DNA of 58,592 nucleotides from a virus: the IMG/VR virus record IMGVR_UViG_3300041809_003506, positions 1 through 58,592 of that record, one strand, 5' to 3'. Position 1 is the first letter of the stretch; each line of letters begins with the position of its first letter. Shown here piece by piece: positions 4,120 through 52,935 of this stretch. The position numbers were made by a program, and so were the translations under genes. The notes under the pieces are model-generated. The model saw only the letters and a program-made list of their open reading frames with translations, did no database searches and was not told where the DNA came from.

Positions 4120-4404
4120 TCAGACTTTGGCGATCCGCGCCTGATAGTCGACGAGGAGCGCCCGCAGCTTGCCGATCAGCGCGATGGCGCTTGCCACTTC
4201 CGGCATCAGCGGTTCGAGCTCCGGCATGGCTTCGCCGAATTCCAGGAACGCTGGCTGTTGCGCCTCGACGCGCTTCAGCGCCGGCGCCAGGATCGTCTGC
4301 GCTTTCTCGACCGTTTGCAGCGCCACGACGATCTCCGGGACGAGCGGCTTCAGCTCGGGAACGAATACGGCGAGCTTGCGCAATGCGGATTCGATCTCTT
4401 GCAT
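4120..4404 (-). CDS. Helical protein, unknown function
   Basis: A 94-residue protein with two similar halves (LAVFVPELKPLVPEIVVAL and FGEAMPELEPLMPEVASAI), which suggests a helical duplication. The ATG at 4404 follows AGGAAA at good spacing. A TTG 12 bp upstream overlaps the previous stop but has no ribosome site. There are no cysteines and no membrane segment. Function not recognised. Confidence 0.55.
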   Translation of the reverse strand: MQEIESALRKLAVFVPELKPLVPEIVVALQTVEKAQTILAPALKRVEAQQPAFLEFGEAMPELEPLMPEVASAIALIGKLRALLVDYQARIAKV

Positions 4405-4412
4405 GGCTTTCC

Positions 4413-4655
4413 TCAATCAATCAGGCGATGGCCGCGCAGCACGGCGCGGCAGGCTGGCGAAATCTGCGCCTTGTTGATGATCAGACAGTGTGCGACCGGC
4501 CGCGGATCGCCGAAATACGCCGCCAACAAATCCCCGATCGAGCACAGCCGCCGGGCATCGGCTTCGCAGGCGATGCGTTCGCGCGACATCGTCGCGGCGT
4601 CAGCTTGCGAAGCGCAAAGGCAGAATGCGAGAATGAGCGGACCGATGACGCGCAT
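4413..4655 (-). CDS. Small secreted cysteine-containing protein
   Basis: An 80-residue protein with an N-terminal Sec signal peptide (MRVIGPLILAFCLCASQADA) and a mature part with four cysteines (CEADARRLC, AHC, SPAC), probably two periplasmic disulfides. The ATG overlaps the stop of the endolysin gene (TGATG overlap), suggesting co-translation. The combination could suit a spanin-like or secreted lysis accessory, but no family is recognised. Confidence 0.55.
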   Translation of the reverse strand: MRVIGPLILAFCLCASQADAATMSRERIACEADARRLCSIGDLLAAYFGDPRPVAHCLIINKAQISPACRAVLRGHRLID

Positions 4656-5497
4656 CAATTCGACGCCTGCCTGAGCTGTGCATTGATCGCCAGCCAGGTC
4701 TCCGGCCCGGCGATGCCGTCGGCTTCAAGCCCGACCGCCTCTTGGAACGCGGCAACAGCGCGCCGTGTCTCGCGGCCGTAGCTGTCATCGACCGTCAGCG
4801 GCGGATCGCAGCCGAGCGAATTCAATGCGCGCTGCACGTCGCCGGCGTCGCGCAAGCCGACTGGTGTCGCCATCGGCGGCGGCACGACGGCCGCGGCGAT
4901 CTGCATCGGTGCGGCGGGGAAGGCGACCGGCAGCGCCAGGTCGGGGCGCAGCTCGACGATACGAAACATCATCGGGATGACGCCGAGCTGCTCGTCGACG
5001 GCATTAGCGTCGAACACGCCGTCGCCGGTAAACTTGCTCCGCGTATAAATGCTCGTTCCCGCCCACAGGTATGGCGTGTGAACGCCGCGCGCGCGATAGC
5101 CGAAGCCGTTGAATAGCTCCCACTCGTAGCAGGATCGCTCCCAGCTCCAATTCGCGGCGCCGACAGCGTCGAGATGATCGATCTGGTAGGATTTGATCTG
5201 TGCCGCAGTAAAACTCGCGAACGGTCCGATGCCGCGCGGCACATGCACGGAAACGTGGTCCCACGGATCGCCCTGTGCCGGGCTCAATCTGAAATTCGAT
5301 GCCGCCTCGCGCTCGAATGAAGCCGCAGCGTCAATCTCCGGCACTTGCGTCGCATCACAGCCGGCCTTGTAGCGGCCTTCGTCGATGAAGCTGATCAGCC
5401 TGTGCGCAGCCGCCTCGACCGCGGTCCCGCGCGTGATCTTCATCTGCGCGAGCAAAGCGGTGTATTCCGGCGCGAGAACCGTGAACGGATGCTGCAT
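4655..5497 (-). CDS. Endolysin with C-terminal peptidoglycan-binding domain
   Basis: A 280-residue modular protein. Residues about 40-185 resemble a lysozyme-like phage hydrolase domain, with a conserved Glu in FEREAASNF, the stretch RGIGPFASFTAAQIKSY, and FNGFGYRARGVHTPYLWAG. After a Pro/Ala linker, residues about 221-275 form a typical PG_binding_1 domain (VQRALNSLG.. RAVAAFQEAVGLEADGIAGPETW). There is no signal peptide, so it needs a holin. Neighbouring membrane genes are the candidates. Confidence 0.85.
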   Translation of the reverse strand: MQHPFTVLAPEYTALLAQMKITRGTAVEAAAHRLISFIDEGRYKAGCDATQVPEIDAAASFEREAASNFRLSPAQGDPWDHVSVHVPRGIGPFASFTAAQIKSYQIDHLDAVGAANWSWERSCYEWELFNGFGYRARGVHTPYLWAGTSIYTRSKFTGDGVFDANAVDEQLGVIPMMFRIVELRPDLALPVAFPAAPMQIAAAVVPPPMATPVGLRDAGDVQRALNSLGCDPPLTVDDSYGRETRRAVAAFQEAVGLEADGIAGPETWLAINAQLRQASN

Positions 5498-5519
5498 GTC
5501 GGTCTTTCAGCTTGTGCTT

Positions 5520-5804
5520 TTAGTCGTGCCAGCAGGCCGCGCGGCGATCGCGCAATTTCTTCTTTCTCGCGCCGACGGCCGCGCAGGAATGTGGTGCGAC
5601 CGGCTTGATTTTCGTGAAACGATAGTGCGGCGCGGGCGGAATGATGACGGACCGCGCCGGCGCCGGCTCGATGGGAACAACAGCAGGCGCAGCCGCAACC
5701 GCCTCATGGCGCTGCGCGTGATCGTAGGCATGCAAGCCAAAGGCCACGGCCAAACCGACGATGAGGCCGAGCAGCGCGCCGGGAACGTAATTGCGCAAAT
5801 TCAT
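5520..5804 (-). CDS. Single-span membrane protein, possible spanin-like component
   Basis: A 94-residue protein with an N-terminal helix (YVPGALLGLIVGLAVAFGLHA), an Ala/Pro-rich middle, and a basic C-terminus with two cysteines. It directly precedes the endolysin in the transcript. The N-in/C-out layout and position fit an inner-membrane lysis protein such as an i-spanin, but no coiled coil is evident, so this is only a suggestion. Confidence 0.5.
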   Translation of the reverse strand: MNLRNYVPGALLGLIVGLAVAFGLHAYDHAQRHEAVAAAPAVVPIEPAPARSVIIPPAPHYRFTKIKPVAPHSCAAVGARKKKLRDRRAACWHD

Positions 5805-5811
5805 TTTTCAG

Positions 5812-6279
5812 TCAGCCTTGCACCAGGACGCCGTTGCGCAGGAAACCGTGCCAACGCTGATTGTCCATAAAGAATGAGCCGGCGCCGGCGGCGCAGGTGT
5901 TGCCCGCCTTGTCGACCGTTAGCTTTTCCCCGAACGTGCCGTGTCGCACCCAGCAGCGATGCGTCTTGTCATCCGGCTTGGTGCAGTTGCTGGCGCGATC
6001 ATCGATGTACCAATGATGCCGACTGTCCGGACCGGAATTCCCGATACAGACGCAAACGATCGAGAGCCCATCAGCGCCCGCTGGCGGGCCAGCTATCCGG
6101 ACCTTGCAGTCGCTGCGATCATTGGCATAGAGCGCGCCGATCGGCAGCTCGCCCGCGAGCTTCTGCTCGCCGGTTTCGACACATTGAAAGATCGTTGAAC
6201 GTCCGCGCCCGACACCAGACGGCAGATCAACCCAATCGGTCTGCCCTATCTGCTTCCACCAAGTGCAGACGTAATTCAT
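5812..6279 (-). CDS. Cysteine-rich protein, unknown function
   Basis: A 155-residue protein with about eight cysteines and several aromatic residues (MNYVCTWWKQIGQTDWVDLP; CVCIGNSGP; HHWYIDDRASNC). The pattern looks like an extracellular disulfide-bonded fold, yet no signal peptide is seen. ATG 6279 follows directly on a GTG that overlaps the upstream stop; either may be used. It is coupled to the next upstream gene. No family recognised. Confidence 0.5.
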   Translation of the reverse strand: MNYVCTWWKQIGQTDWVDLPSGVGRGRSTIFQCVETGEQKLAGELPIGALYANDRSDCKVRIAGPPAGADGLSIVCVCIGNSGPDSRHHWYIDDRASNCTKPDDKTHRCWVRHGTFGEKLTVDKAGNTCAAGAGSFFMDNQRWHGFLRNGVLVQG

Positions 6280-6899
6280 CACGCGCCCGCTCCCGGCAGA
6301 AAACAGCGGATTTGTGTAACGCTCTCAACGTCCCAATAGGGCCATACGACAGCGGGACCATACCTGTTGGGATCGGGGATGACCGCGGTGTCCGGCACGG
6401 CGATCCACTCCTTCCTTACGGGGCAGTCGCCTCCCCCTTCGACCCAACGCGGACATAGCCGCACGCGATAGCCGCCGTTTGGTCCGTCGGTATCCCAATC
6501 GACGTCCCTGACTTCCCTGCCGTCGGCGCCGGAACAGCACGGACCTTTGCTACTCGCGAGCCCGTTCCACCATTCCGCCGGCGGCGCTTTGCCTTGAGCG
6601 ATCAGGTTTGCCCAATAGCCGGTCGGATCGCCGGCGTGCGCCGGTCGAGCAATAAACAAACCGACCAGCCAGACGATGAGAATGACGGCCATTGCCAGCG
6701 CAGCGACGACGCCGGCGACAACGAACATTCGATGAATGCCCCTGTCGGCGTCGTGATCGAGCTGCTCCAGCGGTCCGAGATCGAGATGCGGCCAGTCGCC
6801 GTGCGCTTCCTGATGCACGTCGCGCGCCGGAATACCGAAATGCCGCGCCATCAGAAACCCCAAAGGATCAGCATGGCGAGCAAGGATCGCATCGGTCAC
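6279..6899 (-). CDS. Membrane-anchored protein, unknown function
   Basis: A 206-residue protein with a GTG start. Residues about 58-85 form one hydrophobic helix (MFVVAGVVAALAMAVILIVW), followed by a domain with four cysteines (GPCCSGADG, RLCPRW, GDCP) that should lie in the periplasm. The GTG lacks a clear ribosome site. The last codons overlap the next gene. It lies downstream of the plus-strand methyltransferase and is the first gene of the left-end lysis/membrane run. No function is recognised. Confidence 0.5.
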   Translation of the reverse strand: MTDAILARHADPLGFLMARHFGIPARDVHQEAHGDWPHLDLGPLEQLDHDADRGIHRMFVVAGVVAALAMAVILIVWLVGLFIARPAHAGDPTGYWANLIAQGKAPPAEWWNGLASSKGPCCSGADGREVRDVDWDTDGPNGGYRVRLCPRWVEGGGDCPVRKEWIAVPDTAVIPDPNRYGPAVVWPYWDVESVTQIRCFLPGAGA

Positions 6900-39296: not shown

Positions 39297-40043
39297 TCAA
39301 GGCCGCGACTTCGCCGCAAGAACGGCACGATGCAATTGTGGGCTCCAGGCATAGCGTGCCGCTTCGTCGAACACGTCACGCGCGCGGCGCGGTCCGCGGG
39401 CGCCTTTAGCTTCGATGCTGATGCCGAGTTCGCTGGCGATCGTATCGAGGCATTCGCGAAAGCGAACGCCCAGCGCCCGCTGCTCCCATTGGCCGCTGCG
39501 CCCGAGCAGCAATATCACTTTTTTCAGGTCGTACTTATGGCCGAGCACCCAAGTGACGATCCGATCGCCGACAATGCCGAGCGCCTGGCGCAGTTCGTTG
39601 AGCTGCGCTTGCGCGGACAATCGCGCATCGGTATCCGGCATTTCGAAGCGGCCGCCATCGACGATGTCGCGTGTTGGATCGATGCCTCGAGCGCCGCCGA
39701 TTTCGGCGAGCTCATAGAGCCGCTGCCATCGCCGCGCTGCTTTGAGCCGCATTTCGGTTTCGGTGATGCTGTCGCCGAGCTGGCCGCGCTTCGCCATCTG
39801 ACCGACCGGGTCATCACGCAGATTGACTATTTTGGCGCGGACCTCGCCGTTGGCATCATGCGGGTCGGAAACGTAATGCACGCCGAGATCATCGCGGCCG
39901 TTGATGTAAGGCACGCGCCGTTCGGCGACGTCGGCGAGCGCCGTTTCGAGCAACTTCTCCGCAGCACGCGCCTGCTTGCGCTTACGTCTCAGATCGGCGT
40001 CAACAGCATTCCGCGCAGCAGTCCGTTTTTTTGCTTCGCTCAT
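39297..40043 (-). CDS. DUF6456-type protein, possible late regulator
   Basis: A 248-residue, very basic protein. The N-terminal third is Arg/Lys-rich helix (SEAKKRTAARNAVDADLRRK). The centre has SITETEMRLKAARRWQRLYE and the C-terminal half has ALGIVGDRIVTWVLGHKYDL and VRFRECLDTIASELGI, a pattern I associate with DUF6456 proteins with a sigma-like helical DNA-binding fold. It is the last gene before the early terminator and the late promoter. A role in switching on late genes is inference. Confidence 0.6.
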   Translation of the reverse strand: MSEAKKRTAARNAVDADLRRKRKQARAAEKLLETALADVAERRVPYINGRDDLGVHYVSDPHDANGEVRAKIVNLRDDPVGQMAKRGQLGDSITETEMRLKAARRWQRLYELAEIGGARGIDPTRDIVDGGRFEMPDTDARLSAQAQLNELRQALGIVGDRIVTWVLGHKYDLKKVILLLGRSGQWEQRALGVRFRECLDTIASELGISIEAKGARGPRRARDVFDEAARYAWSPQLHRAVLAAKSRP

Positions 40044-40100
40044 TCGCCGTTTCCCTCTTAATCTTGCTGTTGCGGCCGAACACTGGCGGTTACGGAGCAC

Positions 40101-40129
40101 AACGCTTTTGGCAATTTGCCAAAAGCGTT
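40101..40129. repeat. 29-nt perfect inverted repeat
   Basis: Fourteen-nt arms (AACGCTTTTGGCAA and its complement) around one base. It lies 58 bp before the DUF6456 gene start on the minus strand, at the edge of the repeat array. It could be an operator or an extruded hairpin of the origin. No T-run follows on either strand, so a terminator is less likely. Confidence 0.75.
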
Positions 40130-40141
40130 CCGGGAGGCAGT

Positions 40142-40427
40142 GGGAGGATCAGAAAATCAGCGCATGCGATCCTCCCACGTCGAAAAGCCAACAAACACAA
40201 GATTTTTAGAAGCGATTTGGGAGGATGGGAGGATTGGGAGGATTTTGGTAACTGTGACTCACGTGTGCGCGCTCGCGCACATACACGTGAGTCCTCATTG
40301 CCAATAAGCTGCGAAACCTTCCACATCCTCCCGACGCCTTTTCTAACAATGGGTTACACGGACGCCACAAGCTCCCAATCCGGGAGGATGGGAGGATCAG
40401 AACGTGACTTCTTCATCCAATCCTCCC
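40142..40427. repeat. GGGAGGAT repeat array, putative replication origin
   Basis: Nine exact copies of the octamer GGGAGGAT lie in 286 bp: plus orientation at 40142, 40219, 40227, 40236, 40382 and 40390; inverted at 40169, 40325 and 40420. An A/T-rich stretch (40177-40218) and a hairpin (40256-40293) lie between them. There is no gene from 40044 to 40396. Three further copies lie in the helicase gene (41100, 41995, 42065). Chance expectation for one octamer on both strands is under two in the whole window. The setting next to the helicase suggests an iteron-type origin. Confidence 0.65.
40256..40293. other. Imperfect 38-nt hairpin within the repeat array
   Basis: Outer 11-bp arms GACTCACGTGT and ACACGTGAGTC, an inner GCGCG/CGCGC stem, a 2-nt loop and a 4-nt bulge (ACAT). 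It is central in the gene-free region, between the third and fourth groups of GGGAGGAT copies. Confidence 0.7.
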
Positions 40428-42226
40428 CTATTGACATTTTGCGAATCACCCTTGAGCACGTGACCGTCGCTGTCGACGAAGTCGCTGACCTGGTGCTTGA
40501 GCTTGACGCCGAGCCACCACATCACGTCCGAATGTTTAGAGATAAAGCCGCGCTCCTTGAGCGCCATCGCCAATCCCTTCGGCGACCACTCGGCGACCGA
40601 GTTGGCCTTACCCCACGCGCAGAACAGCGCATGCATTTCGCTCGAGCGCACGCGGCCGGCCTTTGAAACGACGACGCAGGCCTCGAGGAAGCGGCCGCAC
40701 GGATCACTGTCGCGGCGATAGTCGGCTGTGGCGGCAGTGACGTCTTCCGGCGTGACCAACCCATGCTCGAGCCAATCGCGCAGACCGTCAAGCAAACGAT
40801 TGAGAATGCCGGAGGCCTCAGCGCGCACTTTCGCGCCCAGATGGCGATCGATTTTCTCCTTCGGCACGGTGATGGCCCACGGCACGAGCTCGACGCGACG
40901 CCAGATGCCTTCATCGGCGCCGACGATTTGCGGTCGATAATTGCCGCTGATCGTGAGCTTGAATTGCGGATAGAACTTGAAATAGTCGCGGTTGAGATGG
41001 CGCGCGAGCAGCGGCTCGCCGCCGGTCGCGAGCTTGATTAATGTTTCGGCGAGCTTGGCGCCCTTGTCAGGCTCCGACGTGCGCAGATGGCGAACGCCCG
41101 GGAGGATGGCCAGATCCGGCGTCGCCTGACCAGCATTGCGCGATCGACCTTCGTTCAAAAAGGTTTCGATCGGCACGGTCTCGGAATAGTCGCCGGCGAC
41201 GTAAGCGCAAACATCGATGAAGGTGGACTTGCCGTTCTTGCCCTTGCCCCAGAACACGCAGAGTTTTTGATCGGTGACGTCGCCGGTGAGCGACAGGCCT
41301 TGCCATTGCAAGAGGAAGCGTCGGTTTTCCGCCTTTGGCTGCACGTAGGCAAGGAAATCATCGAAGATCGGACAGACCGCGTCCTTGTTGTAGACGACCG
41401 GCGAGCACTTGGTCATGAGGTCGGCGGGATCGTGTTGCTTGAATGTGACGCTGTCGCCTTCCGCGACCTTGCGGCAGATTAGCGTGCCGTTGGCGACGTT
41501 GAGCTTGAACGGATCGGCGTCGAGGAGCTCCGTTGCAACGTGCAGATATGGCGCCGCGCGCTTGGCGATCGGCGCCAGACGGTTCGCCTGTTCCGAAGAA
41601 CGTCCCCAGGCGCGCAATTTGTCCGACATGAGGATCACGCCCTGACCCTTCGGGACTTCGAAGTCGCGGCCGCTGGCGGCGAGCGCAGTGCCTTCGTCCT
41701 GAATAGCTCGGACGGTGACGTGCTCGGCGAGCTTGACCTTTTCCTCTGATCCGTCACGGCACCAACGCTTGCCGTCCCACCACAACCAGCCGAGCGCCGG
41801 ACACCAGAGAAGCTTGCCGCGGTAGCGCTCACGGAAGCGCTCGGCGTTGCCGAGATCGGTGTGCGGAAAGAACGCCAGCCGAAGATTGAGGCCGTCGCCG
41901 TCGTCATCGGCAGGTGCCAGCGGCGGCAGATCGCCTCTGTTGCCGCCGCCTCCACTTTCCGATGATGGATGCTTTTGCGGTAACGCTCCCATTTGGGAGG
42001 ATGTTCGAAAAGAAACGACATTGCCGCCGACAGGCGCGGCAACCGGCGCGGCCGCGGCGGCAGTGGGAGGATCTGTGCCCTTGTCGCTGGAAGGCGAAGA
42101 CCGATCGGTGCGCGCCTGGCGGCGCGCCGGTTTTTTCGCAGCGCGCTCCGCGCGCGGGATCTCGGGCGCCTCGATCGGCCCCGCAGCATCGATGATGGCG
42201 ACGATACGTTCCCAGCCCATGCGCAA
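40397..42226 (-). CDS. Phage SF3 helicase (D5/P4-type primase-helicase C-terminal family)
   Basis: A 609-residue protein. Residues 1-110 are a low-complexity Ala/Pro/Ser linker. Residues 115-290 form the D5N-type region (ANRLAPIAKRAAPYLHVATE; LLDADPFKLNVANGTLI). Walker A is GKGKNGKST at 327-335, followed by TPDLAILPGVRHLRTSEPDK and FKLTISGNYRPQIVGADEGI (sensor). This is the D5/P4 SF3 helicase used to open replication forks. It follows the CHC2/Toprim primase gene, and its stop touches the repeat array. Confidence 0.92.
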   Translation of the reverse strand: MRMGWERIVAIIDAAGPIEAPEIPRAERAAKKPARRQARTDRSSPSSDKGTDPPTAAAAAPVAAPVGGNVVSFRTSSQMGALPQKHPSSESGGGGNRGDLPPLAPADDDGDGLNLRLAFFPHTDLGNAERFRERYRGKLLWCPALGWLWWDGKRWCRDGSEEKVKLAEHVTVRAIQDEGTALAASGRDFEVPKGQGVILMSDKLRAWGRSSEQANRLAPIAKRAAPYLHVATELLDADPFKLNVANGTLICRKVAEGDSVTFKQHDPADLMTKCSPVVYNKDAVCPIFDDFLAYVQPKAENRRFLLQWQGLSLTGDVTDQKLCVFWGKGKNGKSTFIDVCAYVAGDYSETVPIETFLNEGRSRNAGQATPDLAILPGVRHLRTSEPDKGAKLAETLIKLATGGEPLLARHLNRDYFKFYPQFKLTISGNYRPQIVGADEGIWRRVELVPWAITVPKEKIDRHLGAKVRAEASGILNRLLDGLRDWLEHGLVTPEDVTAATADYRRDSDPCGRFLEACVVVSKAGRVRSSEMHALFCAWGKANSVAEWSPKGLAMALKERGFISKHSDVMWWLGVKLKHQVSDFVDSDGHVLKGDSQNVNRGGLDEEVTF

Positions 42227-42232
42227 TTTTCT

Positions 42233-43429
42233 CTAGGCCGCTCGCCGCAGCTCATCGTTGAAGTCCTCGCCATCGGGTGCCCAGGCGACGCGCACGCTGC
42301 GACCAGGCGCGGCATAACGTCGAGCTGATCGAGCCAGGGCGCATTGCGTGGTGAAGCGATCGCTGTCGCCGTCGCCGAGCAGTACCAGGTCCGTCACGCT
42401 CTCCGGTATCGTTAGACCTGGCGCGCGCAGATCGGGCTCAGCGCCCGGCACCCGCCGCGTGCGGCCGGCTTTATCTTTCAATGTCGGATGCGGCACGCTG
42501 TCGGCCGCCTTGCCGGCGAGGTTGCCGAGATCGACGGCCGACCAGAACGCCATATTGACCATGCCGACCGTGTCCTTGTTGCGCCGGCGGTCCAAGAGCA
42601 GCGCCAGCCAGACCGAGAGAACCGTTTCGATGCCCTCGCCGATCATCAACGTGTGCGGCCACTCGCTCATGCAGGCCACGCGAATGATGTTGCCGGCCTT
42701 CGAACCGCGCACCTTTTTCGCCGGCAGCGTGGCGTTGGGATCCTCGCTGTCCGTGTCTCGTATCCAGGCCTTGCGCCCGGGCTTGACCGGATCGAGCCAG
42801 GTGATGTGCACAGCACGGAAACGTCGCTCAGCGTCGACGATCGCCGCCAGCATCGCCGGCCCGCGATAGACGACGCGCGGCGACATGCGGCCAACCTCGT
42901 TTTCCGCCTCGCCATGGAAATAGGCGACGTCGGGAGCAAAACGCAGCGGCACGCGATCGGGCAGTTCCACCAAGCCGCGATGGATCAAATAATCCTCGGC
43001 CCAAGAACCGCGCAGTTCGGCGCCGGCGTGCCAGATATCGAAGGCGACCTTGCGTTCCCGTTCACGATAGCTGTTGGCCTCGCGCTCCGACAGTTGGCGC
43101 TTCTCCTCGCGTTCGCGCTCGAGCTCGGCCGCGCGATCGGCGGATGGCTCGGCTGAGCCGCCCAACAATTCGACGGCACGGGGAAAATCGACGTCCTCGC
43201 GCTTCATCATGAGCTTGATGACGTCGCCGCCGTCGGCGCAGACGGCGCACACCCAGCCATCGGCGTCACATTCGAACGCCGTGGAATCCCGCGCCTGTGG
43301 ATCGGGCGAATGCAGCGGGCACGGCCCAATCAGCTTCTTGCCGTGCTTGCGCAGCTTCACCCACTTACCCGCGACCTGGTCGCAGGGATTGCGGGCTTTC
43401 AGATCGGCAAGGGCGGCCTCGGAGATCAT
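42233..43429 (-). CDS. CHC2 zinc-finger / Toprim DNA primase
   Basis: A 398-residue primase. The N-terminal zinc finger is CPLHSPDPQARDSTAFECDA with WVCAVCADGGDVIKLMM (CHC2 type, residues about 37-75). A Toprim-like C-terminal half includes HTLMIGEGIETVLSVWLALL and VLLGDGDSDRFTTQCALARS, with acidic DGDxD residues. The gene precedes the SF3 helicase by 6 bp, the usual primase-helicase pair. Confidence 0.9.
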   Translation of the reverse strand: MISEAALADLKARNPCDQVAGKWVKLRKHGKKLIGPCPLHSPDPQARDSTAFECDADGWVCAVCADGGDVIKLMMKREDVDFPRAVELLGGSAEPSADRAAELEREREEKRQLSEREANSYRERERKVAFDIWHAGAELRGSWAEDYLIHRGLVELPDRVPLRFAPDVAYFHGEAENEVGRMSPRVVYRGPAMLAAIVDAERRFRAVHITWLDPVKPGRKAWIRDTDSEDPNATLPAKKVRGSKAGNIIRVACMSEWPHTLMIGEGIETVLSVWLALLLDRRRNKDTVGMVNMAFWSAVDLGNLAGKAADSVPHPTLKDKAGRTRRVPGAEPDLRAPGLTIPESVTDLVLLGDGDSDRFTTQCALARSARRYAAPGRSVRVAWAPDGEDFNDELRRAA

Positions 43430-47560: not shown

Positions 47561-47564
<4 letters not shown>

Positions 47565-48931
47565 TCGGCGGCCTCTTTGAGCTCAGCAATCGTAACCGCA
47601 GGGATCATGTCGCCGTGCCCATCCCATTTCTCGCCGCGATCGACGGTCTCGAACAGCGTGGCATAACGCGGCGCCGCGACCAGGCGTTCGAAGTCATCGA
47701 AGAACTTCTTCGGCTTGAGCGAATGACGCTTCTTATCGATCGCGCCATGAAAGAACGTGGTGATGTTGTCGACCTGGATGACCGGCTTGCCGCGCGTGGC
47801 GATGATGCAATGCTCGGTCTGGCCGCGCAGCACCTGGCCGCGTCCCATACGGTCTTTGACCCAGGTCTTTATGGTGACGGGATCGAAGCCCCAAGCTTTG
47901 AATATCTCGACGTGATCGCCGCGCGCCAGGTGATAGTTGGTGATCCAAAGCCCGAGCACGCAATCATCGTGCGCGATCGAAGCGACTGGAACCGCGGCGA
48001 TCTGCGCCGGCGTCATCGTCGGATAGGGATAGTAGCCACGTTCCAGGCGCGCCGGATCCTCATCATCCGGCTCGGCCGCCCATGGCGGATCGACGACGAT
48101 GCCGCGATAGGGACCGTTGCCCGGCAAGGGCGGCGGCTCCTTGCGGATCTGCTCGGCCGCCTGCATGGTCTGCAGCCGTTTGAACGGGCCGTCGACGCGG
48201 CCCGATTTGTCCATGTCAGATTTGAGCTTGCCGAACCGGCTGGGGTTTTTCTCCGCCGCATCGACGATCGCTTCCGCCTTCTCAATGGTGCGCCGCGACT
48301 TGCCGGTAAACGACGCCGCGCGCTCGCCGGCGTTGATCTTGTCGTCAGTCGCTGCAGGGCCGCCCTTGCGTCCAGGCGCCGTCTTGCCGTGCGCCTGGCG
48401 CGCCTTGCCGAGCGGCTTCAGCCGGGCCTCGATCTCGCGCTTAATGGCAACGGCTTCCGATGGCCGGAAGTCCATGCGCAGCGCCGGATCGTTCTCCGCC
48501 CATTCGCCGGCGACGATGTCCTCGAGCGGCACGACGCGGACTGGGATCGGCTGATCGCGGAAGATCGAGAGCTGCCAGGCTTTCAACCGGCGCTCGCCGG
48601 CAATCAAGATATTGTCGCGGCTAACGACGATCGCGTGCAGCAATCCGTGTTCGTTGATGTCGCGGGCGAGCGCGGCAATATTGCCCATCTCCTTTCGATG
48701 GCGCTTGCCGATCTTGATCTTCTTCCAGGGAACGCAAATCTGCATGCGCTCGTCGAGCGTTAGTGCGCCTTTTTTCCAGCCGGCGGCGCGAACATCTTCT
48801 GCAGCCGCACGCTTATCAGCGGCCGCCATCTCCGCGAGCACAGGATCCGAGCGTTTGCGCGGCCGTGCGGCCTTGTGCTTCTTCGCCGGCGCCGGCTTGC
48901 GGGCGCGTTTTTTGGTGTGGCGCTTTTTCAT
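47561..48931 (-). CDS. ParB-like nuclease domain fused to MT-A70 adenine methyltransferase
   Basis: A 456-residue fusion. The N-terminus is very basic. A ParB/Srx-type domain (about 65-160) has GNIAALARDINEHGLLHAIV and NILIAGERRLKAWQ (108-120). The C-terminal MT-A70 methyltransferase has the catalytic DPPW at 281-284 and a following LWITNYHLARGDHVEIFKAW. Such proteins make N6-methyladenine in DNA. A ParB part could give target choice. It is coupled to a second ParB-like gene upstream. Confidence 0.9.
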
Positions 48932-51226: not shown

Positions 51227-52234
51227 CTAGGAACGACCCTCGGCCCCTTGTTGTTCGGATAAGCCGAGGCTACGGATCAGATTGGCACTATCGGCGAAAC
51301 GCGCATGGCCGAGCCATGCGGCAAGGAAGCTATCGAGACGTTTATGATCGCCGGCGGCGCGATAGGCGGCGATCTTGCGTCGTGCACGGATGACGCTGTC
51401 GCGCCGCAATAGCTTGTGCGTCGACCAGATGAGGTAGCCGAGAAAATTGATGCCGCGGCTTGCCGGCGCGATCTGCCATTTCGAGAAGCGCAAGCCCAGC
51501 TCAGCGCGCGAGAACGCCTCGATGCTCTCCTTGACGGCGCGCAGATGACGGGAGCTCTCGCCGAGCACAACGAGATCGTCCATGTAGCGAAACCAGTAAT
51601 CCTCGCCCAGCGTCTGCTGCAGATGCCGATCGAGCGTAGCGCCGGTGTAAAGATTGGCGAAGACTTGCGAGGTGAGGCTGCCGATCGGCAGGCCGATGCC
51701 GCGCCGCGGCACCATCGCTTCGATCAACCGCAACGTGGCTTGGCAGCTGATCTTCGCTTCGATCAGGCGCCAGAGCGCGCCATGCTCGATCGAGGCAAAG
51801 TATCGAGAGAAATCCGTCTTCAGGAAATAGACCTGGCCCCGGCGCGAGAGATGCCGGAGATCGCGCTGCAGGGCGATCGCGCCGGCGTGCGTGCCCTTGC
51901 CGGGGCGGCAGGCGAAGCTACGCGGCAGCAACGCGCGATCGAAGATCGGCGCGATGATCAGGCACAACGCCTGCTGCGCGACCCGGTCGCGGAACGGCAA
52001 CGCCGAGATCAATCGTCGCTTCGGATCGAGGATGAAAAACTCGTTCGGAGCGCCAGGCGAATAATGACCGGCCGCCATGTCCTGGGCGAGATCGGCGAGA
52101 TTGAGCGCGTCATATTCCTTGAAATCGAGATAGCCAGCGGTCAGACGCTTGCCGCGCGCCGTCAACCGATAGGCTGTCTGCATCGTTTCGAACGATGTGA
52201 TCTGGCCGATGAGGTTGCGGTAACGCTGTGACAT
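51227..52234 (-). CDS. DGR reverse transcriptase
   Basis: A 335-residue reverse transcriptase. Motifs: KTDFSRYFASIEHG (139-152) for the first catalytic Asp, GLPIGSLTSQ at 181-190 (the GxxxSQ form that marks DGR enzymes), and YMDD at 217-220 with the two catalytic Asp. The thumb follows (FSKWQIAPASRGINFLGYLI). It lies 183 bp downstream of TR. The ATG at 52234 starts the RT homology; the same frame stays open upstream through TR to 52585. It copies TR RNA and, with Avd, makes adenine-mutated cDNA. Confidence 0.96.
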   Translation of the reverse strand: MSQRYRNLIGQITSFETMQTAYRLTARGKRLTAGYLDFKEYDALNLADLAQDMAAGHYSPGAPNEFFILDPKRRLISALPFRDRVAQQALCLIIAPIFDRALLPRSFACRPGKGTHAGAIALQRDLRHLSRRGQVYFLKTDFSRYFASIEHGALWRLIEAKISCQATLRLIEAMVPRRGIGLPIGSLTSQVFANLYTGATLDRHLQQTLGEDYWFRYMDDLVVLGESSRHLRAVKESIEAFSRAELGLRFSKWQIAPASRGINFLGYLIWSTHKLLRRDSVIRARRKIAAYRAAGDHKRLDSFLAAWLGHARFADSANLIRSLGLSEQQGAEGRS

Positions 52235-52417
52235 TCCTGGTTCGCACGCTGAGATGAAGATGCCGGCCGCGGGTCTCGACGGGCTTTGCCCGCTACGCCC
52301 CGCTCTGCCGGACCTTGAAGTGTGTTCGCCGAAGCAGGACAGACGGGCTGACCACCGACCTTGATCTTGTGTGGCCGGCCGGCGTGACCTTAGTCGTCGC
52401 CGAGCCGTGATCCGGTC

Positions 52418-52544
52418 GTCACAGCGGCCGCGAGCGCCCAAGTTATCGTTCGAGTTGTCCGGCCAGTTGTAGGCGACGTTCGCGTAGCGCGAGCCCGCGT
52501 TGTCGACGTTGAGCCAGGAACCGCCGAAGAAGGAAGCGCGCGGC
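52418..52544 (-). repeat. DGR template repeat (TR)
   Basis: A 127-bp segment matching VR at a constant offset of 564 bp. On the coding (minus) strand TR has adenines at 20 positions; nine differ in VR (plus-strand coordinates 52450, 52455, 52467, 52468, 52470, 52480, 52501, 52503, 52510), and none of the other 107 bases differ. Six of the eight altered codons are AAC in TR. It begins 5 bp after the avd stop. The GC-rich end (52421-52440) is the likely IMH-star region. Confidence 0.97.
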
Positions 52545-52548
52545 AGCA

Positions 52549-52935
52549 TCATATCCCCGTCCGCCCTCCGAGCTTCTTTTGCCACGCGCCCAGCATCCGC
52601 CCCGGCTCCGACAAGAGCGCTAGAGCAGTCTTGTGTTGATGCGGGGTGATGATCCGGATGCTGTCGCGGGCTAAGAAGCGCAGGTATGACCGCAAGGTCG
52701 CGAACTGAGCATCGACGGCGTGCAGCCGGGATATCTGTCTCGACTTTGCGGAGTGATAGAGGCCGCCGATCGGCTCGAACAACGCGGTTAACACGGTGTC
52801 GCGAAGAACGCCATGTTGACGCGGGCTGCGCTGCAGGATCGGGTAGAGATAGCTCACGAAGGCCTCGTATTTTTCGACGATCGCCAAAGCGTCAGTGCTG
52901 GTATTTTCGTCTCTGATGATCGTCGTTTCGTTCAT
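52549..52935 (-). CDS. avd: DGR accessory variability determinant (Avd-like)
   Basis: A 128-residue, basic, all-helical protein with LAIVEKYEAFVSYLYPILQR then SPRQHGVLRDTVLTALFEPI, GGLYHSAKSRQISRLHAVDA and TALALLSEPGRMLGAWQKKL. This fits the four-helix bundle of Avd proteins that form pentamers and bind RT and TR RNA. It sits between target gene and TR, as in Bordetella phage BPP-1. Its stop overlaps an ATG (ATGA) that opens the TR frame. Confidence 0.92.
   Translation of the reverse strand: MNETTIIRDENTSTDALAIVEKYEAFVSYLYPILQRSPRQHGVLRDTVLTALFEPIGGLYHSAKSRQISRLHAVDAQFATLRSYLRFLARDSIRIITPHQHKTALALLSEPGRMLGAWQKKLGGRTGI

Follow-up and report, generated by a model that had tools for sequence, protein, structure and literature searches.

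The helicase gene and the octamers beside it

The window, by which we mean the whole 58,592-base stretch of viral DNA analysed, carries at 40397–42226 on the minus strand a gene for a 609-residue initiator helicase of the P4-family/D5-type within SF3. The protein matched Pfam D5_N (E 5e-23, 82.4 bits, cut-off 22.4) and passed the family threshold of TIGR01613 (211.9 bits, cut-off 108.7); its AlphaFold2 model had PDB matches to full-length D5-like AsfvPrimPol, and blastp aligned P4 alpha with it across the helicase core (E 3e-07, 24%). Upstream, a separate gene (42233–43429, −) encodes a CHC2/DUF7146/Toprim primase, and the downstream gene (39297–40100, −) belongs to phrog_21451, a family of unknown function. 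This downstream gene may start at the ATG near 40043 instead of the GTG at 40100, and the gene-free space would then measure ~300–350 nt. The early region of the phage also holds a reverse-transcriptase gene (RVT_1, E 2.6e-18; 51227–52585, −), and at 47561–48931 (−), beside a DUF5131/GP88 protein, ParB_N-like and MT-A70 methyltransferase domains are combined in one protein.

The octamer GGGAGGAT occurs as an exact match 12 times in the record, both strands counted, and every copy falls within 40142–42072; in 100 dinucleotide shuffles of the window the mean was 1.88 and the maximum 5. The recount thus bears out the number given in the first-pass annotation, and the equal density elsewhere that it had considered as a possible refutation is not seen, the rest of the record holding no copy. 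Nine of the copies lie in 40142–40427, six on the plus strand and three on the minus strand, again as described there; the remaining three start at 41100, 41995, and 42065. The number of copies inside the helicase gene, previously put at three, is instead four, because the octamer at 40420–40427 covers the last helicase codons; a further copy, at 40390–40397, overlaps the stop codon.

The array begins at the helicase stop codon, the TGA of which overlaps one ATCCTCCC copy, and is divided into clusters. Cluster A (40382–40427) comprises octamers at 40382–40389 (+), 40390–40397 (+), and 40420–40427 (−), overlaps the stop, and in relatives corresponds to a conserved cluster 0–36 nt from it. Cluster B is a single minus-strand octamer (40325–40332) that faces cluster C, where three plus-strand octamers (40219–40243) have their counterpart in a cluster conserved 140–200 nt from the stop in relatives; cluster D (40142–40176) consists of octamers at 40169–40176 (−) and 40142–40149 (+). 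Two of the copies within the gene form a plus-strand pair (41995–42072) in the part encoding a disordered linker, where they had been placed before, and constitute a weaker second iteron cluster; the lone plus-strand octamer at 41100–41107 is probably incidental.

Both of the inverted repeats reported earlier are real, and so is the A/T-rich patch. The first inverted repeat is a perfect palindrome at the end of the array (40101–40129), AACGCTTTTGGCAA-A-TTGCCAAAAGCGTT, with a 14+1+14 structure that is operator- or terminator-like; no intrinsic terminator was found in the array. The second coincides with a central GC-rich tract of alternating purines and pyrimidines (40256–40293), which in the window can also form a hairpin with perfect 11-bp arms (40256–40266 and 40283–40293). 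The A/T-rich patch (about 40178–40218) adjoins cluster C and is a candidate unwinding element. GC skew, computed for the window and three plasmids, left no mark at the array and is uninformative for an origin, and a literature search with the octamer returned unrelated papers only.

Arrays beside related helicases

IMG/VR was scanned for the doubled octamer GGGAGGATGGGAGGAT, without regard to encoded proteins. This yielded 51 stretches, 37 of which had a homologous helicase gene (25–63% identity) ending just upstream; 36 of these were recognised by tblastn with the window protein and the 37th (L013) by a more distant query, whereas the rest of the 51 mostly held just two chance copies. In the reverse direction, loci were fetched by the helicase protein or its alignment, and 360 nt spanning the stop and the sequence past it were checked for repetition of any 7-mer, which had to beat all 40 shuffles. 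A repeat array followed the stop in 32 of 37 loci at ≥50% helicase identity and in 108 of 123 at 40–50% (140/160, ~87%, at ≥40%), and in 50/72 at 35–40%, 16/26 at 30–35%, and 12/26 below that, against 7/289 at control positions 900 nt upstream and 8/278 at positions 600 nt downstream (~3%). The array is therefore tied to the helicase and not there by chance, and the conservation of the repeats in relatives with the same helicase, on which the first-pass annotation had staked its proposal, is observed. Hosts named on the genome contigs were mainly Bradyrhizobium, Tardiphaga, Mesorhizobium, Methylobacterium, Rhodoblastus, Sphingomonas, and Sphingobium; a search of genome contigs with the single protein found no relative, whereas the alignment-based search did find them.

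The octamer core varies between phages, being GGGAGG or GGAAGG (G or A at base 3), while the layout stays fixed. Among 221 loci with repeats of these two types, copies read in the helicase sense and counted from the stop were reversed at 0–20 nt, forward at 20–100 nt, reversed at 140–200 nt, and in both orientations at 200–300 nt; a forward copy was followed 40–140 nt on by a reversed, facing copy in 214 of the 221 (median 81 nt). Repeats of their own occupy the same place in Bacillus phage phi105, Phaeobacter and Tritonibacter phage-plasmids, RcapNL, and cyanophage Pan4. A 46-kb plasmid of Methylobacterium currus (L458, NZ_CP089299.1) likewise encodes a P4-family helicase (4554–6560) with its own downstream repeats; its cargo includes a type I-E CRISPR system and chromate-resistance genes, it has no recognised phage genes, and neither its annotation nor a scan of its larger unannotated ORFs revealed a second replication initiator. 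Other replication genes are present on two of the plasmids, pP88_h and perhaps p5.

The remaining elements of the locus are conserved to different degrees. In 196 aligned loci, a stretch of ~40 nt after cluster C had a mean A+T content of 0.60–0.65, compared with ~0.4 around it. An alternating purine/pyrimidine tract often fills the space between clusters (mean longest run 16.3, compared with 9.1 in shuffles), but folding of the centre into a hairpin is not conserved, with a median fold z of −0.6 and values below −2 in only 26 of the 196 loci, and the hairpin was thus discarded as a conserved element. The CcrM (GANTC) sites of this hairpin were likewise set aside, since the window has them but relatives show fewer than expected (18 against 65). 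The palindrome at 40101–40129 recurs in the same place in ~17 near relatives only, mostly bradyrhizobial; its sequence there is altered yet still paired (e.g., AAATGTTCC/GGAACATTT), as in an operator or terminator. Octamers in the linker-coding part form a weak cluster, occurring in 87 of 217 loci, but one specific to class: per 10 kb, octamers of a phage's own class numbered 7.5, those of the other class 1.8, and reversed ones 1.1. These linker octamers, which in relatives lie −2300 to −1500 from the helicase stop, encode class-specific peptides, SSQ in GGGAGG phages and SF in GGAAGG phages.

A C-terminal winged helix and its covariation with the octamer

The AlphaFold2 model of the helicase ends in a winged-helix domain (residues 518–576; 40499–40675, −), composed of a strand (518–527), two helices (528–541 and 549–558), and two further strands (562–565 and 569–576), which is the putative octamer-binding domain. 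Modelled alone together with 74 relatives, the domain reached a core pLDDT near 98. Its best structural match was the DNA-binding domain of RFX1 (1dp7; VIA-align Z 9.0), which belongs to a eukaryotic transcription factor with 7% identity and another target, and it also matched the origin-binding domain of P4 (1ka8; Z 8.0, 79 residues aligned, 18% identity). Since a Z near 8 could by itself reflect a common fold, added support comes from the sequence kinship with P4 alpha and from Pfam matches of the 74 C-terminal domains, 53 to Pox_D5 and six to RFX_DNA_binding. The predicted structure thus points, at the level of fold, to a winged-helix origin-binding domain like that of P4. RFX1 reads bases on DNA mainly by its wing, and this fits the location of the covarying residues described below.

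Beside GGGAGGAT, octamers in relatives include GGAAGGAT, GGGAGGGT, GGAAGGGT, TGCAAGGG, GGATAGTT, and GGAGAGA. With classes defined by base 3, 7-mers of a phage's own class reached 133 per 10 kb of array, compared with 1.3 for the other class and 1.6 for the reversed motif. Across the whole helicase, mutual information with octamer class was highest at column 568, where the initial set had Gly in every A-class sequence and Val or other residues in the G class; in loci fetched later, Gly568 was present in 54/54 GGAAGG loci and 8/60 GGGAGG loci. In the window this residue is Val568 (codon 40523–40525), within the wing (residues 565–570; 40517–40534, −), which holds the residues covarying with base 3.

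These associations were corrected for phylogeny in a scan of the whole helicase alignment on a tree from which the winged-helix domain was excluded and on which octamer class changed independently only about 5–6 times. For residue 568, five supported independent pairs gave 4.0 changes in the same direction and none in the opposite one (sign test p 0.125 for 568 by itself); the case for the wing rests on the clustering of the best columns in one loop. The best three columns were 568, 565, and 570, with 567 fifth, all in the wing. Lys565 was present in every G-class exception and in no A-class sequence, and the rule that base 3 is A only if residue 568 is Gly and residue 565 is not Lys, in which Lys565 was included after the holdout exceptions had been seen, described 217/217 loci (103/103 and 114/114). 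Cyanophage Mae-JY28, which lay outside the scans, has TGGAAGG repeats together with Gly568 and lacks Lys565, in agreement with the prediction of the rule. Two further octamer positions also track this domain best, base 7 (A or G) with residues 552 and 575 and base −1 with residue 554. Three loci with helicases near the family of the window (L067, L155, and L145) variously carry quite different repeats (GGATAGTT, AGTGTCG) or, in L145, GGGAGG repeats with an altered recognition-helix region.

A probable cis-acting replication region and its known counterparts

We interpret the array as a cis-acting replication region, most likely an origin, bound by the helicase encoded at 40397–42226, and assign this reading, which draws on sequence covariation, a probability of roughly 85%. 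Position, conserved layout, and wing/octamer covariation together strongly support an origin function tied to the helicase. The most likely binder of the octamers is the helicase itself, as opposed to the DUF6456 protein or the primase, and if the array does act in replication, we lean toward its being the start site itself. In the mechanism envisaged, the C-terminal winged helix would bind the GGGAGGAT octamers, and the facing clusters (in the helicase sense A−, B+, C−, and D+/−) would load helicase rings on either side of the central tract; the A/T-rich patch by cluster C might then be opened, after which the primase encoded separately in the operon (42233–43429) would prime synthesis.

The alternative that survives best is a narrower form of this reading, in which the array is an accessory region like the crr of P4, bound by the helicase while synthesis starts elsewhere. 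The crr of P4 shares both the position and the octamer order of the array, and the class-specific octamers of the linker-coding part would supply a second iteron cluster, which could be a partner site of the array. The window, however, has no other array, the linker cluster is weak, and the A/T-rich patch sits in the array itself; of the two, an accessory role is held the less likely.

The genes on either side of the octamers share a strand, and together with the palindrome at 40101–40129, which could be an operator, this might suggest operators for a regulator of the early operon or of the downstream gene. We regard such a role as very improbable, as the array stays with the helicase while the downstream genes differ among relatives, up to 13 copies would be many for an operator, and no sigma-70-like promoter was found in 39900–40600; the helicase could nevertheless also regulate its own operon.

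A packaging site (pac/cos) with the small terminase as binder would account for TerL lying 2.1 kb downstream of the array in the window, for the terminase genes that come next in many relatives, and for the genome end of phage RcapNL that adjoins its array. Linkage to terminase is, however, not kept throughout the family: six checked loci of a distant helicase group have primase genes after the array, and the module occurs on the M. currus plasmid. Octamer changes moreover track wing residues of the helicase, the only protein of which the columns were scanned, and a packaging function is accordingly given hardly any weight. Finally, an action of the repeats in RNA, through SD/anti-SD pairing or as a structure at the 3′ end of the helicase mRNA, is the least credible explanation, since the ribosome-binding core within GGGAGGAT and the complementarity of the A/B to the C/D copies are offset by the lack of an Rfam match to the array, the unconserved central hairpin, and the fact that octamers change together with the wing of a DNA-binding fold, which would be unexpected for RNA.

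The replication reading could extend to one origin design in a large, mostly alphaproteobacterial group of phages, with its specificity determined by a small number of helicase residues in wing and helix (565/568 reading base 3, 552/575 reading base 7) as an evolvable recognition code readable from sequence, and with the second octamer set in the linker codons as a possible built-in crr-like site; to this broader proposal we give even odds. If it is true, hundreds of unstudied phages, and some plasmids, could have their origins located and matched to their initiators from sequence alone, single substitutions could test the rule by which octamer and wing pair, and the principle known from P4, SaPI, and Cch2 would reach cyanophages and the full-size phages that infect Bradyrhizobium, Sphingomonas, and other hosts.

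Among known systems, the array differs from classical iteron plasmid origins, which have direct iterons of ~17–22 bp, in its 8-bp units in both orientations. The plasmid pRN1 encodes a primase-helicase, orf904, with a C-terminal winged helix, and its stem-loop origin lies directly after the gene (PMC4234260), the same place as the array; pRN1, however, has no iterons and depends on a conserved stem-loop, whereas the window group keeps iterons and, across the 196 loci, no conserved large stem-loop after the replication gene. Close counterparts are SaPI Rep and SCCmec Cch2, initiator helicases (D5_N/Primase_Cterm) that bind short repeats lying immediately past the genes encoding them; Cch2 does so with its C-terminal domain (PMC7581432). 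The iterons of SCCmec Cch2 are three copies of AAGTG, in contrast to the 8-bp repeats of the window group, present in up to 13 copies and both orientations.

Another close counterpart is phage P4, with which the window shares a TIGR01613-family helicase, a winged helix that models like the P4 origin-binding domain, and 8-bp repeats in both orientations right after the helicase gene in a matching order. In the P4 record, crr (4291–4590) directly follows the alpha gene and contains ten type 1 octamers TGTTCACC in both orientations, arranged in the alpha sense as −, ++, −−, and then an A/T-rich stretch, twice. P4 differs in octamer sequence, in the primase fused to alpha (separate in the window), in its crr of two 120-bp direct repeats, and in being an 11.6-kb satellite; it also has, and needs, a separate strong ori, annotated ~4.7 kb from the alpha stop, and hence two octamer regions. 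The window has a single strong array, and only its weak linker cluster could take the role of the second region. The array had been introduced as a candidate new origin type, and of this proposal the origin function is retained as likely while the novelty is not, because P4 crr has the same anatomy and SaPI Rep and SCCmec Cch2 bind downstream repeats (PMC7581432). The array is better described as a variant of the P4/SaPI/SCCmec kind, characterised by a fixed layout, a split primase, and a readable specificity code.
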